Made by a program: the position numbers and the translations under genes. Source: Bacteroides sp. (GTDB lineage: Bacteria > Bacteroidota > Bacteroidia > Bacteroidales > SM23-62). Taken from it: DNA of 35,382 nucleotides. Where the stretch lies: the NCBI GenBank assembly GCA_030640625.1, contig DAOWJB010000352.1, positions 1-35,382 on the forward strand, read 5' to 3'. The notes below the pieces were generated by a model. The model did no database searches. It was given only the letters and a program-made list of their open reading frames with translations, and was not told the DNA's origin. Each line of letters opens with the position of its first letter. Within the stretch, counting starts at the first letter, position 1. Below, in pieces: positions 27,110 to 34,161 of the stretch.

Positions 27110-27763
27110 TCAGAATTTAACACCAAGACGCAGGGCCAGGGAGTTCACATAGACCCGGTAATCTTTATTCGTGGTCACATCCCAGATAGCACCAGTCAGG
27201 TAAATGCCTGCCAGGATGGCAAAATTTCCCCCAAAAGAAAATTCAACTCCTCCGCCCATGAAATAGGACATTAAAAAGAGATTTATCCCTTCCTTTATGT
27301 CTTCACCATTTATATTTTGTTCAGGAGCATCGGCGATGGCCCGGATGTTGATATGGTTATTCAGGCCAAGATGGGCGAACATGGTGGAATAACCAATCTG
27401 GCTTGAAGTGAGTTTAAGACTGAAAGGGATGGTAAGGTATTGTAGTTTGTAGGACACGGTTGTTCCAGGCGGAAGCGTATCCTTCCCTGAACCGAAATCA
27501 AAAACCATTGAATCAAGATAATGCAAATTCCCTCCGGTGTTCAGGATTGACAATCCGGTTGACAAAGCATAATTATCTGTATAAAACTTATCCATAACCA
27601 GTCCGATATTATATCCAAAATTCCATCCATCTCTCTGAATTCTGTCGGAACTTGATTTCATCCATGTGATCTGTGGGTCCACGACAACACTGAAACTAAG
27701 GTCCTGAGCGAATATCTGCAATGAGAAAGCCAGAATGATCAGACTTAATATGTACTTTTGCAT
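27110..27763 (-). CDS. Outer-membrane beta-barrel protein (PorT-like family)
   Basis: 217 residues with a signal peptide (MQKYILSLIILAFSLQIFAQ) and a mature part of alternating strands typical of small Bacteroidota barrels: FSVVVDPQITWMKSS, WNFGYNIGLVMDKFYTDNYA, TGLSILNTGGNLHY, YKLQYLTIPFSLKL and a final strand ending NSLALRLGVKF with C-terminal Phe. This is the general PorT-like barrel domain; it is not necessarily PorT itself. Ligand and role are unknown. It is first in an operon with nadE and diverges from gldB. Its ATG lies only five bases from the -7 box, suggesting a leaderless message. Confidence 0.85.
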   Translation of the reverse strand: MQKYILSLIILAFSLQIFAQDLSFSVVVDPQITWMKSSSDRIQRDGWNFGYNIGLVMDKFYTDNYALSTGLSILNTGGNLHYLDSMVFDFGSGKDTLPPGTTVSYKLQYLTIPFSLKLTSSQIGYSTMFAHLGLNNHINIRAIADAPEQNINGEDIKEGINLFLMSYFMGGGVEFSFGGNFAILAGIYLTGAIWDVTTNKDYRVYVNSLALRLGVKF

Positions 27764-27775
27764 TGTACAAAAGTA
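27753..27775. promoter_or_regulatory. Palindromic back-to-back promoters of the barrel gene and gldB
   Basis: TACTTTTG (27753-27760) and CAAAAGTA (27768-27775) are perfect inverted copies separated by seven bases. Each is an exact TAnnTTTG -7 box, one facing gldB on the plus strand and one facing the barrel gene on the minus strand. The two polymerase sites overlap and should exclude each other; the palindrome may alternatively be a repressor site. Confidence 0.6.
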
Positions 27776-27783
27776 TAATATTC

Positions 27784-28821
27784 GTGGAAAAGAATTTTAA
27801 ATATTTACGAACCACGGGGATGGTTTTTCTGCCTGTTATCCTGGTATTCGCCATGCTTTTTCAGGCCTGCAGGAAGGACCCTTATCAGACAGAAATTTCT
27901 GGCATGGATATGGACCTGCAGATCAATCGTTTTGAAAAGGATCTGTTCAACCTGGACTTCGATAGCATTCACGCGGCCATACCAATCTTAAAAAGCCGGC
28001 ATGGCGAATTCTTTGACATTTTCAATTACAGGATAATAAACATTGGCGGATCTGATCAGGTGACTTATCCCGATTATCTCAAAAGTTTTTTAACGGACTA
28101 CCTGAACAATGAAGTATACCGGGTGACCATGGAAGTATTCCCTGACCTTACAGTGTTACAATCCCAGTTAAATGATGCATTCAAACGTTATCATTATCAT
28201 TTTCCGGAAAAGCAGATACCAGAGGTGGTGAGTTTTATCTCAAGATTTAACCAGTCAATTGTCACTTCAGATGGTCTTTTGGCTGTTGGACTGGACAACT
28301 ACCTTGGTTCTGACTCAGAGTTTTACGAGAGACTGGCGAGGCATCAGTATCAGATCAATAACATGCATCCTGCTAAAATTTCCAGTGATTGTCTGCTGGG
28401 TTGGGGAATAACTGAATTTGAATATAATGATTCAGTTGACAATGTCCTGTCAAATATGATTTACCATGGAAAGATCGCCTATTTTACCAAATGGATGCTA
28501 CCTGCTCAGCCCGACAGCCTGATCATGGGATTTACTGCCGGCCAGATGAGATTTTGCCGGAACAATGAATCCAGGATGTGGGAATACCTGGTTGAAGAGA
28601 GGATCCTGTTCGAAACTGACCGGATGATCATTCAGAAGTATACAGGAAGCGGACCCTTTACCAGTGATTTTACCAGGGAATCTCCTGCAAGGGCAGCCGT
28701 CTGGCTCGGATGGAGAATAGTCGAAGATTATTTTCGAAATAATTCCAGGATATCCCTGAAGGATTTGATGGATGAGGATGATTATCAGAAGATCCTTACA
28801 CTTTCGAAATACAATCCCTAA
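27784..28821 (+). CDS. gldB: GldB-family gliding-motility lipoprotein
   Basis: 345 residues from a GTG start. A lipoprotein signal peptide has a basic front (EKNFKYLRTTG), a hydrophobic core (MVFLPVILVFAM) and the lipobox LFQAC. The mature protein matches GldB in style: DLQINRFEKDLFNLD near the front, DAFKRYHYHFPEKQIPEVVS, VGLDNYLG, the MIYHGKIAYFTKWMLP segment, and SPARAAVWLGWRIVEDYF near the end. GldB supports T9SS-dependent gliding in Flavobacterium and is related to zincin-like proteins, though its exact role is unsettled. Start choice: a TTG at 27763 lies inside the promoter palindrome, and an ATG at 27820 would drop the basic leader, so GTG at 27784 fits best. No gldC follows. Confidence 0.85.
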   Translation: MEKNFKYLRTTGMVFLPVILVFAMLFQACRKDPYQTEISGMDMDLQINRFEKDLFNLDFDSIHAAIPILKSRHGEFFDIFNYRIINIGGSDQVTYPDYLKSFLTDYLNNEVYRVTMEVFPDLTVLQSQLNDAFKRYHYHFPEKQIPEVVSFISRFNQSIVTSDGLLAVGLDNYLGSDSEFYERLARHQYQINNMHPAKISSDCLLGWGITEFEYNDSVDNVLSNMIYHGKIAYFTKWMLPAQPDSLIMGFTAGQMRFCRNNESRMWEYLVEERILFETDRMIIQKYTGSGPFTSDFTRESPARAAVWLGWRIVEDYFRNNSRISLKDLMDEDDYQKILTLSKYNP

Positions 28822-29167: not shown

Positions 29168-30358
29168 TCAGGTATCTTTTAAATGAGACAGTGCCAGCCA
29201 GGCCATGGTGCCCACGCCTGTCTTAAGGGCTTCTTCATCGATATCAAAATTGGGTGTATGCAATTCCAGGGGTTCGACCTGCTTAGGATTCCTTACACCG
29301 AGCCGGTACAGGACAGAAGGATATTTTTGGGCAAAAAATGCAAAATCCTCTGCCGTCATCCTGATGTCCAGTTCATCAACTGATTCTTCACCGAGATATG
29401 TCCCGGCGAATTGGCGTGATTTAGCTGTAATGTCAGGATCATTGTAGAGAACAGGGTACCCTTCCACGATCTTGAATTCACAGCTGGCGCCCATGCTATC
29501 TGCAATGGACTGCGCTATATTAATCATTCTCGAATGGGCCTCCTTGCGCCATTTTTCGTCCATGGTTCGGAAGGTTCCTTCCATTCTCACCTCAGGCGGA
29601 ATGATATTTACAGCTCCATTGGCGATCATTTTTCCGAATGACAGAACAGTAGGTGTGGAGGCTTCTGCATGCCTGCTCACGATCTGTTGCAGGGCTACCA
29701 GGATATGTGAGGCGATCAATACACTGTCAGTGGTCTGATGGGGCATGGCGGCATGTCCTCCTTTTCCCCTGACAGTAATGTATATCTCATCACTTGATGC
29801 CATATATTTACCTGACCTGAAACCGACCCTGCCGGTATACATGACGGGGAATACATGCTGGGCTATCACCATGTCGGGTTCATCCTGTCCGAAAAGATTT
29901 TCCTGCATCATGAGCCTTGCGCCTCCCGGAGCTTTTTCCTCACCGGGCTGAAATATTAATTTAACCTTGCCGGGGAATTGATCCTTAAGTTGGTCGAGGA
30001 TCCTGGCAGCACCGATCAGGCACGCTGTGTGGACATCATGTCCGCATGCATGCATAACTCCATCATTGAGGGAACGGTAAGGGGTGGTATTCTCTTCCAG
30101 TATGGGCAGTGCATCCATGTCTGCACGCAAGGCAATGATCCTTCCTTTGCCGGTGCCATTGATCACAGCTACTATCCCTGTGCCGGCAATACCCTTCCGG
30201 AAGGCAATGTTTTCCTGCTCGAGCAGGCTGCAAATATATGCGGCTGTTTCATCTTCCTGGAATGATAATTCGGGATGCCGGTGCATATGTTGCCTGATTT
30301 CCAGCATCTCCGGGAATATTTCATTAGTCAGGTTTTGGATGGTCTGTTTTAGATTCAT
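29168..30358 (-). CDS. M20-family amidohydrolase (N-acyl-amino-acid / hippurate hydrolase type)
   Basis: A 396-residue M20D peptidase-fold enzyme that hydrolyses N-acyl amino acids or similar amides. The metal site is clear: LRADMDALPI, HACGHDVHTACLIGA (Cys and His ligands), QPGEEKAPGGARLM (catalytic Glu pair) and IAQHVFPVMYTGRVGFRSG. The dimerisation lid carries GKGGHAAMPHQTTDSV, and the final ligand lies in the RMTAEDFAFFAQ / HTPNFDIDEEAL region. No signal peptide, so cytosolic. It follows the TauE gene by 15 bases in what looks like one operon with the large barrel protein. The true substrate cannot be told from motifs. Confidence 0.93.
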   Translation of the reverse strand: MNLKQTIQNLTNEIFPEMLEIRQHMHRHPELSFQEDETAAYICSLLEQENIAFRKGIAGTGIVAVINGTGKGRIIALRADMDALPILEENTTPYRSLNDGVMHACGHDVHTACLIGAARILDQLKDQFPGKVKLIFQPGEEKAPGGARLMMQENLFGQDEPDMVIAQHVFPVMYTGRVGFRSGKYMASSDEIYITVRGKGGHAAMPHQTTDSVLIASHILVALQQIVSRHAEASTPTVLSFGKMIANGAVNIIPPEVRMEGTFRTMDEKWRKEAHSRMINIAQSIADSMGASCEFKIVEGYPVLYNDPDITAKSRQFAGTYLGEESVDELDIRMTAEDFAFFAQKYPSVLYRLGVRNPKQVEPLELHTPNFDIDEEALKTGVGTMAWLALSHLKDT

Positions 30359-30373
30359 AATTTATGACTTTAA

Positions 30374-30742
30374 TCATGGCCAGAAGATCATTCGGACTCC
30401 GGCCACGAGCATCAGTCCCCCAAAAATTTTCTTCAGTGTAGCAGCTGGTAATTGGACAGCCATCAGGGAGCCCAGGTAACTTCCGATAAAGAATACTGCC
30501 AGTAGCAGAATGGAATATTTAATATTGATATGTCCTGCTTTGTAATAGTTGATGAATGCCAGCAGGCCTATAGGTGCAAGCATCATACCAAGGCTAACCC
30601 CCTGCGCCTGGTGCTGTGTCAGTCCCAGGAAAAACACCAGTCCAGGTACAATAATAATACCCCCACCAACGCCCAGGCTGCCACTGATAAATCCGGCCAG
30701 TACACCTATGGCGATAAGTAATAGAATTTCATGTAAGCTCAT
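30374..30742 (-). CDS. Half-size TauE/SafE family permease
   Basis: 122 residues forming about four membrane segments. The family motif GVLAGFISGSLGVGGGIIIV with the following proline is at the front, then LTQHQAQGVSLGMMLAPIGL, INYYKAGHINIKYSILLLAV and ATLKKIFGGLMLVAGVRMI. TauE/SafE proteins are usually about 250 residues with two inverted copies; this is a single copy and probably works as a dimer. Similar short forms occur in Bacteroidota as I recall, so it is likely intact rather than truncated. The family exports sulfite, sulfonates or other organic anions. An ATG at 30763 is possible, but the one at 30742 gives the family start and avoids overlap with the upstream gene. Confidence 0.85.
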   Translation of the reverse strand: MSLHEILLLIAIGVLAGFISGSLGVGGGIIIVPGLVFFLGLTQHQAQGVSLGMMLAPIGLLAFINYYKAGHINIKYSILLLAVFFIGSYLGSLMAVQLPAATLKKIFGGLMLVAGVRMIFWP

Positions 30743-30752
30743 AGGCCTGGGA

Positions 30753-33700
30753 TTAAAAGTCAAGGTTCATTGAGAAATAGAAAATCCGGGGCAGGATGAT
30801 GTTGTTTTCGATTCCCCATGCCCAGTCTAACCTGATCCAGTAACCCAGCAACATGGAACGGACACCGAATCCATAACCGGCCACAATGGGTTCACGGTTC
30901 GAATCAATGGTAATGGTCAGAGGTCCGCTTTCGATGACCTCATTGTCATAGGCATTTTCGCCAGACCAGGGATGCGGGCCATTCCAGGCAGTACCAATGT
31001 CGCCGAAGCCTACGATCATGAAATTATTAAGAAAGTTATTACTGATGGGATGATTTGCAAAATACCTTACCACTGGCCATCTCAGTTCGGTATTGAACAC
31101 GGCAAATTTATCACCGTTACGGATGTTCTGCGTGAATCCCCGCATATTTGTAGAAAGTGTCTGATAGGAATAATTCTTACTGTGATCGATGGGGATGCTC
31201 TGGTCAAACTGTTGTACCCTTGAAGAGAAGTTTATCCAGTTATCCACGCTGCCCATGTAATAGATGATCCGGCTTCTGCCGAATGAAGAGGCTGTTGCAA
31301 AACGGTTTGCCCAGATCAGGGTCCGGTGTATCTTCACATAATGCCTGGCATCCAGTCCCACAGAGTATAGATCCCACATATTGCCATTAAACTGCTGATA
31401 GGCTTCAGCAAAGATCTTCATCCGGGTTCCATGGTGCAGGTTTTGTCCCAAATACCTGGTATTATCAAAAATATAGGCCAGGTTGAGTCCACCCCAGAAA
31501 TTTTGAATATTGGGCTCATTAAGGTTTTTCAGGTCGGTGGAAAGGAACACATAGTTGTCATGCCGGCCGTTGATGGTCCCTTCAAAGGCAGAAACCTGGT
31601 TAAAGGGCCAGCGCATCTTAAACATCAGATTATGTGAAAAGGATTTGAAATAGGATGATTGCCAATAGTTTTTAAAGACCTGCCGGTGAAAGATCAGCTG
31701 CTTGTTCAGCCTTCGCTTCAGGTTCTCAAAACTGAGCAGGTATTCATTGCTGTCAAAATCGGCGGCAAGCCTGACCCCGGCAGTTATTTTATAATCCTCA
31801 AAAAGGTCATTTGTGCCGAGTTTAAACATCAGGTTGAACCCGGGGTTATAGTAAACGGCACCACCAGTGAATGTCTGGTAAGAAGCATTCAAAAAACTAA
31901 AATCTATCTGGCTGGCCACATAGTTTGTGTAAAATGCTGTTTCATAAATTCTTGGAGGGGGGCGTACGAAGGCATTTGTGTCCAGCACCAGGTTCAGGTT
32001 ATCTTCGGCAAATTTTTCATTATAATAATTAAGCTTTTCAAGCTCGAAGACATAATTGTTTATATCGATCACCTGCCGGTCGAGGTCAAGGGTATCGGCG
32101 GATTGGGTTATGATCCGGTTGTCCTCAATTTCCTGGATGGATATCACTTCTTTCTTCACCCTTTTCAGGCTGTCAATCTTCCTTAGCTTGGCTGTATGTG
32201 ATTCCCGGAAAGCGGTATTGGTAAATTCTCGACCATAGGCATCCGGCATAGGATCCAGTTCATCCTTGTACATATAATACCGGTTATCATGAAAGATGAC
32301 TTCTGCATATTCACCAGTTTCCGGATTAACATCCTGTTCCAGGATATTCCGGCTGTAGTTGGTAATGGGGAATGACTGTGTATAATACCGGTAATGTGTG
32401 GTTGTATCAATGAAGCTTATCGTACTGTCATAATCAGCCACATACCTGTTAATCAGTCCGTTCTGGTCGCTCAGAAAAGTGAATTTATTATTGCCAATGG
32501 CAAATGGCTGCACATCATTAATAAAATGATGTTCAGAGATTTTATTGATCTTTTTCTGCCTGGTAGCATAGTCGATAACGTAAAGATTATGGGTCAGATA
32601 GCGGCTGTTCAGTGGTTTTCCATCGACATGGTATTCGGTGGTATCCTGGGGACGGTTCGAATTGAAGGTGATCTGTTTGGAGTTATTGATAAATCTTGGA
32701 TTGAAATCATCATAGATGTCATTCGTTAATCGCTCATTGGTCCCTGCAGAGATGGTATGAACATATATATCAGCCTGCCCCCTGTTTATCCCTGACAGCA
32801 CTATTTTAAATCCGTCATCCGAATAATCAAAATCCAGTACTTTTTCAAAGAATGCAAGATTCCTGTCCGTCAAGTCCTTTGTCTCAAGCATGTAGTAATA
32901 AAGGCGCAGTCCCCCTCCTTCCTCGGTGATAAAAGAGAGGATCCGGCTGGTAGGATGCCAGGCCAGCACAGGATAGGTGTAATCCGGGATCTGGTCAAGC
33001 CGGTGTTCCCGCTTGAGCAATCGTTTGGTTTTACCTGTACGGATATCATGCAGATAGATTTTATACTGCCCCAGTTCATTTGTTGCGAAGGCCAGATAAT
33101 TTCCATCCGGACTCAGCTTTACCTTATTATACACCCTTTTCTTATTGGGTTTGCTGAGGATCTTTCCGGTTAAAGGAAGTTCTCTTTCCGTCCTGCTTTC
33201 ATCGTATTGGTCCATGTAATAGGCCATCCAGTCATAAGAAAGATCCTTGATCGAAAATCCCAGTACATAAAGAAAACCGCTGTTGGCATTCTTATTGATC
33301 CGGGTGAGATAAAGGATATTTGGAATGACTGATTCCCCATATGATTCTGCAACATATTTCCAGAAAGAGTGTCCGGCATGCATGGCATCATCTCCGGTAA
33401 GCCAATTGAATCGCTCATACTCACCTGTCATGATACCGTCTTTTACCCGGTTCTCGATCTCAAAATCCCAGTCCTTTGACAGATAAGAGATAAGGCCTTT
33501 GGTATACCAATCCGGTAAATTGATCAGGGTTGAATTCGTCAGGTTTTCCCGGAATTCATTGCCATACAACAACTCGTTGATGACCACTTCCCCGATGGCG
33601 GCGCTGATCTGTTGTTCAAATTTTTTATGGTCCCCGTCAAAATAAATAAAGACCTTGTTCCGGATGACTTTGGTGATGCCTCCGGTATTATAATCCTCCC

Positions 33701-34040
33701 TGCCGGAGACCAATCCGATGTTACTCTGCCTGAAATCAGCAAGCTTATTGTATACGATAAATATCAAGCGTTTTTCCAGGGTATAATCAAAGAATTCTTC
33801 AGCATGTTCTATCTCTTCAGACAGAAAATCAGCAGTGTAATTGGCAAGGGCTTTTCCGGATTGGTTGAAATAGGTGTCAAATTTCTCGTACCTGTAAAAA
33901 TACCAGTAGAAATCGTTGAATTGAACCCTGTTCTTACCAAAGGCCATTTGGGTCCCATAATAGAACTGGCCCTGTAATTGTGATACAGCCAACAAGAAAA
34001 AAATAATAAGGACAATATTTGTTTTAACAATCCTGTTCAT
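30753..34040 (-). CDS. Large secreted protein: degenerate peptidase-like domain, TolB-type propeller, outer-membrane barrel
   Basis: 1095 residues. Signal peptide MNRIVKTNIVLIIFFLLAVS, cut after LQGQ. Residues ~25-290 resemble a gluzincin peptidase domain (NRVQFNDFYWYFYRYEKFDT, NLPDWYTKGLISYLSKDWD), but the HExxH zinc motif is absent: the matching place reads IGEVVINEL (149-157). Residues ~300-560 form a WD40/TolB-like propeller (VKLSPDGNYLAFATNELGQY, VLAWHPTSRILSFITEEGGG, FNPRFINNSKQITFNSNRPQ). After a charged linker, about residue 720 onward is a beta-barrel resembling the Omp85/BamA C-terminus (MKLGTNDLF-type strands, GFGDIGTAWNG, LRWPVVRYFANHP), ending in aromatic FYFSMNLDF. It is probably an outer-membrane protein with periplasmic propeller; function is unknown. 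I chose ATG 34040 over 34061 because it opens the signal peptide. Confidence 0.85.
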   Translation of the reverse strand: MNRIVKTNIVLIIFFLLAVSQLQGQFYYGTQMAFGKNRVQFNDFYWYFYRYEKFDTYFNQSGKALANYTADFLSEEIEHAEEFFDYTLEKRLIFIVYNKLADFRQSNIGLVSGREDYNTGGITKVIRNKVFIYFDGDHKKFEQQISAAIGEVVINELLYGNEFRENLTNSTLINLPDWYTKGLISYLSKDWDFEIENRVKDGIMTGEYERFNWLTGDDAMHAGHSFWKYVAESYGESVIPNILYLTRINKNANSGFLYVLGFSIKDLSYDWMAYYMDQYDESRTERELPLTGKILSKPNKKRVYNKVKLSPDGNYLAFATNELGQYKIYLHDIRTGKTKRLLKREHRLDQIPDYTYPVLAWHPTSRILSFITEEGGGLRLYYYMLETKDLTDRNLAFFEKVLDFDYSDDGFKIVLSGINRGQADIYVHTISAGTNERLTNDIYDDFNPRFINNSKQITFNSNRPQDTTEYHVDGKPLNSRYLTHNLYVIDYATRQKKINKISEHHFINDVQPFAIGNNKFTFLSDQNGLINRYVADYDSTISFIDTTTHYRYYTQSFPITNYSRNILEQDVNPETGEYAEVIFHDNRYYMYKDELDPMPDAYGREFTNTAFRESHTAKLRKIDSLKRVKKEVISIQEIEDNRIITQSADTLDLDRQVIDINNYVFELEKLNYYNEKFAEDNLNLVLDTNAFVRPPPRIYETAFYTNYVASQIDFSFLNASYQTFTGGAVYYNPGFNLMFKLGTNDLFEDYKITAGVRLAADFDSNEYLLSFENLKRRLNKQLIFHRQVFKNYWQSSYFKSFSHNLMFKMRWPFNQVSAFEGTINGRHDNYVFLSTDLKNLNEPNIQNFWGGLNLAYIFDNTRYLGQNLHHGTRMKIFAEAYQQFNGNMWDLYSVGLDARHYVKIHRTLIWANRFATASSFGRSRIIYYMGSVDNWINFSSRVQQFDQSIPIDHSKNYSYQTLSTNMRGFTQNIRNGDKFAVFNTELRWPVVRYFANHPISNNFLNNFMIVGFGDIGTAWNGPHPWSGENAYDNEVIESGPLTITIDSNREPIVAGYGFGVRSMLLGYWIRLDWAWGIENNIILPRIFYFSMNLDF

Positions 34041-34074
34041 GATACAGATTGATTCATCCATCGCCGGTATGGGG

Positions 34075-34082
34075 CAAAGTTA
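34075..34082 (-). promoter_or_regulatory. -7 element of the large barrel-protein operon
   Basis: On the minus strand TAACTTTG matches TAnnTTTG and is followed by C. A TTG on the same strand at 34105-34107 is 22 bases upstream. The leader would be about 30 bases. Confidence 0.5.
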
Positions 34083-34161
34083 AGGATATTTTGATCATTA
34101 TTAACAAGCAACCTTTGCAATTGAAATAGAGTCGTACATGTATATATAAACAGATATTTGT

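Follow-up and report, generated by a model that had tools for sequence, protein, structure and literature searches.

The window analysed here is a stretch of 35,382 nucleotides of Bacteroides sp. DNA (contig DAOWJB010000352.1 of assembly GCA_030640625.1, positions 1 to 35,382 of the forward strand; GTDB Bacteroidales, SM23-62). Its reverse strand carries, at 30753..34061, an open reading frame (ORF) of 1,102 codons counted from the first ATG, encoding a protein with a peptidase-like domain that has apparently lost its active site, a β-propeller and an Omp85-type β-barrel; this protein, its relatives and its possible role in outer-membrane assembly are our subject. The initial annotation of the window had read a peptidase-like front, a propeller and an Omp85-like barrel in one polypeptide. 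Domain and profile matches have borne this out, and we regard the domain anatomy as secure, with approximate borders. The Peptidase-MA-like domain (PF13485, by profile comparison) occupies residues 33-297 (~265 aa; 33171..33965, reverse strand like all features of this gene), the TolB-like/PD40 propeller residues 298-600 (32262..33170; Pfam, NCBIfam and structure-sequence matches) and the Omp85-type barrel residues 696-1102 (~407 aa; 30756..31976; profiles and the Pfam match of an orthologue), with the C-terminus reading ...LDF. The linker of residues 601-695 (31977..32261) is poorly conserved, with a better-conserved stretch, IDINNYVFE (32043-32069), in the alignment of 33 orthologues.

That alignment (A2) leaves out L004 as a near copy, L030 because it lacks the N-terminus, and copies broken by contig ends. 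The other sets were 21 aligned proteins of 25 from other families of the window's class (A5), 42 aligned proteins of 44 from a sister lineage (group F) and ten paralogues (family B); the HExxH pattern was checked in all. L037, whose record names a Flavobacteriales bacterium, was counted with the window clade by its placement in the tree.

The initial annotation had ended the gene at 34040, which is Met8 of the ORF. Every one of the 33 aligned orthologues has this Met, so that the start is probably right, and we consider it likelier than the first ATG. A putative Sec-type signal peptide (33969..34040), read from the sequence rather than by a signal-peptide program, has no lipobox Cys; inspection of the N-terminus, which ends ...QLQGQFYYG, found no TamL-like lipoprotein Cys after the hydrophobic stretch. 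The mature protein probably starts with QFYYG (Q32 is invariant in the alignment, F33 nearly so). By eye, a TTG is followed ~22 bases on by TAACTTTG at 34068-34110; we take this spacing to fit the Bacteroidetes promoter pattern, and it would give a short leader ahead of Met8. In one locus, L049 (3626-7450), the target ORF has 1,274 aa with an N-terminal extension. PF01467 (cytidylyltransferase-like) matches one of the 33 A2 proteins, by its letters that of L049, probably a gene fusion; gmk- and YicC-like genes, named by eye, lie upstream of it.

By fold, as judged from profiles, the N-terminal domain of the window protein is a member of the Peptidase MA clan. The window-clade profile of this part matched that of the HExxH-bearing sister lineage at 100% (E-value 5.7e-60, 297 columns). 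PF13485 itself was detected in all 42 sister-lineage proteins, in seven of the 33 A2 orthologues at E-values up to 1 (best 2.3e-05) and in three of the 21 A5 proteins, the window-clade matches lying below the curated cut-off where shown. A pattern search of the first 330 residues found HExxH in none of the 59 window-clade orthologues with an N-terminus (34 near orthologues and 25 proteins from other families of the class, L030 not counted). The loss noted by the initial annotation is thus fixed in the window's clade; a general loss across homologues was rejected, as the motif is kept in all 44 fetched sister-lineage proteins and all ten paralogues. The register given earlier was also slightly off: the former HExxH site is not IGEVVINEL but A154-A-I-G-E158 (33588..33602). 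The HELVH of the relatives aligns with these five residues, and the VINELLYG that comes next in the window protein with their VINDMFYG, so that both His residues and the catalytic Glu are lost. In A2, 32 of 33 rows have Ala or Gly where the catalytic Glu would stand. Lys188 (33498..33500) aligns with the Glu of WxxEG in the relatives, which we take to be the third metal ligand, as in M1-type peptidases; this Glu is invariant in the sister lineage (42 of 42 rows) and the paralogues (ten of ten), and occurs in only seven of 33 (A2) and four of 21 (A5) window-clade rows. Having neither HExxH nor the catalytic Glu, the window-type domain is, on this alignment, catalytically dead.

In a tree of 106 proteins groups F and B were each set apart from the rest by a branch whose support was 100. 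When the tree is rooted on B, the difference between intact and lost HExxH requires one change (by a quick method). All F genomes are outside the window's class according to their kinship labels. As far as these sequences tell, the ancestral peptidase was a real one, and a single loss explains the tree. The mean pairwise identity among the 33 orthologues was 0.461 in the dead domain, 0.392 in the propeller, 0.189 in the linker and 0.495 in the barrel. For the window-L003 pair, the only one with the synonymous rate (dS) computable in all four parts, the ratio of non-synonymous to synonymous rates (dN/dS) was 0.022 in the dead domain, 0.052 in the propeller, 0.067 in the linker and 0.033 in the barrel; the ratio of the dead domain is rough, since its dS reached saturation in each of the four remaining pairs and is high in this one too, at 1.72. 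The dead domain is under strong purifying selection and is not decaying, which argues that it has been retained for something other than catalysis.

By sequence profile, the C-terminal domain is an Omp85-type barrel, TamL/BamA-like and not TonB-receptor- or FadL-like. The initial annotation had pointed to BamA/TamA-type profiles as the comparison for the last ~370 residues, and the expected match was obtained: in profile-profile comparison the window-clade barrel matched TamL at 96.0% (E-value 3.9e-09) and BamA at 87.7% (3.5e-06), whereas the control sets from related genomes reached 0.9% (TonB receptors) and 0.15% (FadL) (all four sets were gathered by Pfam family, BamA and TamL being split by length and ends). 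The profile of the 33 orthologues alone gave 92.6% for TamL and 4.4% for BamA, the highest control over all four families reaching 5.2%. An orthologue fragment 55% identical to the window protein (G015:C383) is over the PF01103 cut-off (26.6 bits versus 24). In the sister lineage an Omp85 Pfam match was seen in 11 of 42 proteins (best 7.3e-15), and a genome search placed the target over the Omp85 cut-off in six of ten genomes. The motif RGF/RGY in loop 6 is a hallmark of Omp85 barrels. Residues 974-976 of the window protein read RGF (31134..31142, within NMRGFTQNIRNG), are invariant in all 33 orthologues and, we assume, correspond to this motif. In the sister lineage, the Arg-Gly of the site is invariant in all 42 aligned proteins; RGF/RGY is missing from the C-terminal part of 13 of 44 proteins, and in L121 it occurs only elsewhere. 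The barrel is the best conserved part of the protein, with 49 of 407 columns invariant versus 11 of 265 in the peptidase domain.

Several observations weigh against this assignment. The window protein's own sequence had no Omp85 (PF01103) match in the Pfam scan. A full-length AlphaFold2 model (seven sequences) had a predicted local distance difference test score (pLDDT) of 32 and was useless; the barrel-only model (seven sequences) was weak as well, with a mean pLDDT of 45.7, and its best Foldseek match by E-value was the TonB receptor FhuE. Likewise, PF01103 was not among the families listed for the 33 A2 orthologues (25 of 34 families) or the 21 A5 proteins (all families). BamA and TamA were among the top Foldseek matches of the barrel model, mixed with other barrels and with low TM-scores, and VIA ranked CymA first on the same low-confidence model; we did not use the Foldseek and VIA results as proof. 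This model has 16 strands, a count that it suggests and no more, and places RGF in a long loop between strands 11 and 12.

The TolB-type propeller of the initial annotation was recovered as well: PD40 scored 25.7 bits in the window protein versus a Pfam cut-off of 20.9, and TolB structures matched it by sequence at 1.6e-06. The NCBIfam TolB model gave 2.6e-16, yet far below the family's bit cut-off. PD40 was detected in all 33 A2 rows and nine of 21 A5 rows. The absence of POTRA domains ahead of the barrel also held at the level of sequence: scanned against Pfam (E-values up to 10), the window protein showed no POTRA family, and there was none among the families listed for the 33 orthologues (25 of 34 families) and the 21 A5 proteins.

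The initial annotation had contrasted the propeller in this place with the POTRA domains normal for Omp85 proteins. We rejected the reading as a new Omp85 architecture, as the type was named WD40-Omp85 in 2014, in a passage that gives its function as unknown and likens it to a BamA-BamB fusion (Heinz and Lithgow, PMC4104836); a 2024 text again lists WD40-like Omp85 proteins among those not well characterised (PMC11116518). With a TolB-like propeller ahead of an Omp85 barrel and no POTRA match, the window protein resembles this subfamily; it differs in having a peptidase fold, whereas the subfamily text in PMC4104836 mentions the propeller alone. The assignment to WD40-Omp85 is one by domain order, not by the sequences of the published cluster. 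The 'Metallo' subfamily of the same paper is a separate group with a PF00149 domain, and the word 'peptidase' is absent from the paper. 'WD40' does not occur in PMC4494059 (evolution of the translocation and assembly module, TAM) or in PMC12045153 (TamL of F. johnsoniae), and our literature searches found no study of a window-type protein. It would appear that the peptidase domain, its class-wide death and a link to tamB and rnr, described below, are new detail on a known kind of protein.

Taken together with gene order, these features lead us to propose, with a probability of roughly 50%, that the window protein, being of the WD40-Omp85 kind, is a factor for outer-membrane assembly that acts like the Omp85 half of a TAM (TamA or TamL with TamB). 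The initial annotation had spoken of an alternative assembly or transport module; this is still an inference, and one that gains support from the sister lineage. In 19 of 29 contexts there, the target gene is preceded by a TamB-like gene at -2 and an RNase R gene (rnr) at -1, all three sharing a strand; the contexts were hand-picked for spread and are not a random sample (L247 gave no target and is outside the 29). Counted by itself, RNase R takes position -1 in 20 of the 29. The gap between RNase R and target is at most 91 bases in 17 of the 19 tamB-linked contexts, and these 19 cover eight family codes. The profile of 18 of the 19 adjacent TamB-like proteins matched that of seven TamB proteins taken from genomes, across 1,436 columns (E-value 5e-111; C-terminal part 99.96%); the TamB profiles exclude L209, whose short TamB-like ORF lies at a locus end. 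G302 and G183 each have one PF04357 match in the genome, namely the tamB beside the target gene. G140 and G309 (loci L252 and L253) have two tamB genes: one heads the rnr-peptidase-Omp85 cluster, and directly next to the other is a 641-residue ORF that matches Omp85. Because of the tamB linkage, the sister-lineage data suggest that the protein there is the outer-membrane end of a TAM.

Other observations count against such a role. The linkage is missing in 10 of the 29 sister-lineage contexts, and in G314, G330, G064 and G255 the PF04357 matches are on another contig or distant from the target. PF04357 matches only four of the 19 adjacent TamB-like proteins (E-value 0.001), the others showing AsmA, DUF748 and YhdP families. 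In the window's clade no tamB was found within three genes of the target in 28 contexts, and a TamB profile of 25 proteins matched in just one (L059) of 33 contexts, 23 near (window included) and ten more distant; the L059 match (2-2968, 1.8e-140), cut by the locus end, is on the opposite strand to the target and five genes upstream. We found no orthologue-profile match in 87 of the 296 genomes sampled across the phylum, of which the 20 listed all belong to the window's class or order; hence the protein is not generally essential. In addition, we rejected it as a subunit of the published Bacteroidota β-barrel assembly machinery (BAM), as the consulted parts of two studies, covering three Bacteroidota species, do not name it.

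The 209 genomes with a match (E-value 1e-10) include group F and probably some paralogues, and with two candidates scored per genome the search may miss some. A single-protein scan of genome contigs gave six relatives, all in metagenome-assembled genomes; a scan of viral contigs with the A2 profile gave no match. The L059 tamB is possibly a relic of the sister-lineage linkage. The only PF04357 match of the window genome is on another contig; G259 and G326 are tamB-linked, yet no PF04357 match was found in either genome; and the ten short contexts of family B had no TamB-profile match. That the window's clade lacks the catalytic site as well as the operon link is noted here as an observation, with no claim of joint loss.

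These counts also bear on an alternative that we consider unlikely, namely that the protein is a stand-alone fusion resembling BamA with BamB, in which the propeller would replace BamB, the barrel would fold a subset of outer-membrane proteins without TamB, and the tamB linkage would mean shared regulation. The same suggestion was made for the WD40-Omp85 cluster in the corresponding part of PMC4104836, the window's clade is almost devoid of tamB linkage, and bamA-tamB operons occur elsewhere, for which a passage of PMC4494059 considers shared control without contact. Nevertheless, this alternative alone does not explain the order tamB-rnr-target in 19 sister-lineage contexts from eight family codes with such short gaps, and the missing linkage in the window's clade is a weak argument for it: in Bacteroidota tamL and tamB are unlinked and their products co-purify (PMC12045153, in the part on these genes). 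The same source reports that in F. johnsoniae tamL and tamB are essential, and that tamL2 and tamB2 form one operon.

As for the TAM-like role, the resemblance to TamA/TamL is twofold: the window-clade barrel profile is closest to the TamL-type set, and in the sister lineage tamB is in the same operon-like cluster. Three POTRA domains are typical of TamA and TamL; in contrast, the window protein has no POTRA match and no lipobox Cys, with a pseudo-peptidase and a propeller instead, and in nearly all of the window's clade the target is unlinked to tamB.

Omp85 barrels insert polypeptides or translocate them. In the mechanism that we propose, the barrel would sit in the outer membrane, and the propeller and peptidase fold would hang in the periplasm, where POTRA domains usually stand; there they may provide docking sites for client proteins or partners, of which TamB is the likeliest in the sister lineage, and deliver them to the seam of the barrel. 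Ancestrally, a functional gluzincin-type zinc peptidase would remove clients that have stalled, as BepA does alongside BAM in E. coli. The window's clade lost the active site a single time and would have retained the domain for binding or as a chaperone, the window protein keeping just binding and hand-over. The periplasmic location, the contact with TamB and the handling of clients are what we infer from these comparisons.

For the intact sister form, BepA (M48) of E. coli offers an analogy, being a zinc metallopeptidase engaged in outer-membrane protein assembly; unlike the window protein, it is a soluble tetratricopeptide-repeat protein with no barrel fusion. According to the passages on its activities in PMC8423444, BepA has protease and chaperone-like roles, degrading stalled clients as well as promoting maturation, and the protease-dead E137Q form keeps a weakened maturation activity. 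TolB and BamB, too, are periplasmic β-propellers, TolB being the nearest solved structure by sequence; they differ in being separate soluble or lipoprotein subunits without a barrel.

PlpD, a patatin-Omp85 protein, resembles the window protein in having an enzyme domain ahead of an Omp85 barrel, and differs in that patatin and one POTRA domain replace peptidase and propeller and, in the account of PMC11116518, in being dimeric. As the PlpD N-terminal domain is placed in the periplasm (PMC11116518, section on PlpD), a periplasmic location of the propeller and peptidase fold is by analogy the most likely one. PlpD is also the precedent for an anchored periplasmic enzyme or pseudoenzyme, whose barrel would serve as anchor or gate and whose N-terminal part would act on lipids, peptidoglycan or periplasmic proteins with no insertion taking place. 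The same section reports that the patatin domain stays periplasmic and that a lateral gate is apparently lacking, paralogue family B has the same domain order with an intact active site, and an M20-type hydrolase is among the neighbours in the window's clade. We find this quite unlikely for the window protein, in which the catalytic site is dead, so that an enzymatic role needs another site, and in which the barrel is better conserved than the peptidase domain. An early model of PlpD, as retold in PMC11116518, would have the N-terminal domains displayed or secreted through the barrel in a type Vd-like manner; this is very improbable here, since the same text itself puts the PlpD domain in the periplasm, the propeller and peptidase fold are large and folded, and no release site was noticed, though no search was aimed at one.

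Returning to the TAM-like assembly factor, we put forward a more specific version of it tentatively: in branches of the Bacteroidota outside the window's class there may be a third kind of TAM, in which one TamB has as its Omp85 partner, instead of TamA or TamL, a single protein with its own zinc peptidase for quality control and with a propeller where POTRA domains would be, while the window's class would have lost the operon link and the peptidase activity, leaving a pseudo-peptidase chaperone-insertase parallel to TamL. For WD40-Omp85 proteins our analysis adds a peptidase domain, a living and dead pair for domain tests and, through the conserved gene cluster, TamB as a candidate partner, which together make the function testable in a culturable species. 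It also bears on how outer-membrane assembly is divided among machines in Bacteroidota, where the BAM differs from its E. coli counterpart.

The members of family B (L038-L047, 1,007-1,056 aa) have HExxH in the form GHE[LM]VH, carry RGY or RGF and end in a C-terminal Trp; one of the ten is over the Omp85 Pfam cut-off.

Directly downstream of the target gene, and overlapping its end, is a half-size TauE/SafE permease gene (30374..30763, reverse strand; PF01925 positions 1-110 of 237), followed by an M20-type amidohydrolase gene (29168..30358, reverse strand; PF01546, TIGR01891). The co-orientation with these genes pointed out by the initial annotation is correct and recurs in other genomes. Among 23 near contexts, which include the window and same-genus genomes, BLAST-clustered homologues of TauE are at +1 in nine and of the M20 protein at +1 or +2 in 12, the window being counted in both. 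The TauE/SafE protein has 129 aa; since homologues of 120-148 aa recur at the same place in those nine contexts, it looks like a stable single-repeat form and not a truncation. We rejected an assignment of function from the window-clade neighbours, as the half-size TauE, the M20 protein, a metallo-β-lactamase-fold hydrolase (fold named by eye) and DUF1573 share no evident pathway.

Type IX secretion and gliding genes were seen near some targets. In L222 (1308-5974) the opposite strand encodes PorV and a C25-type (PorU-like) type IX secretion protein four to five genes upstream, and BLAST-clustered homologues of these are found three to five genes upstream in five of ten contexts of more distant class members. 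The window itself encodes the gliding lipoprotein GldB at 27763-28821 (TIGR03514, 229.7 bits, over the cut-off), and the adjoining gene at 27110-27763 encodes a small outer-membrane barrel with a weak PorT-like match.

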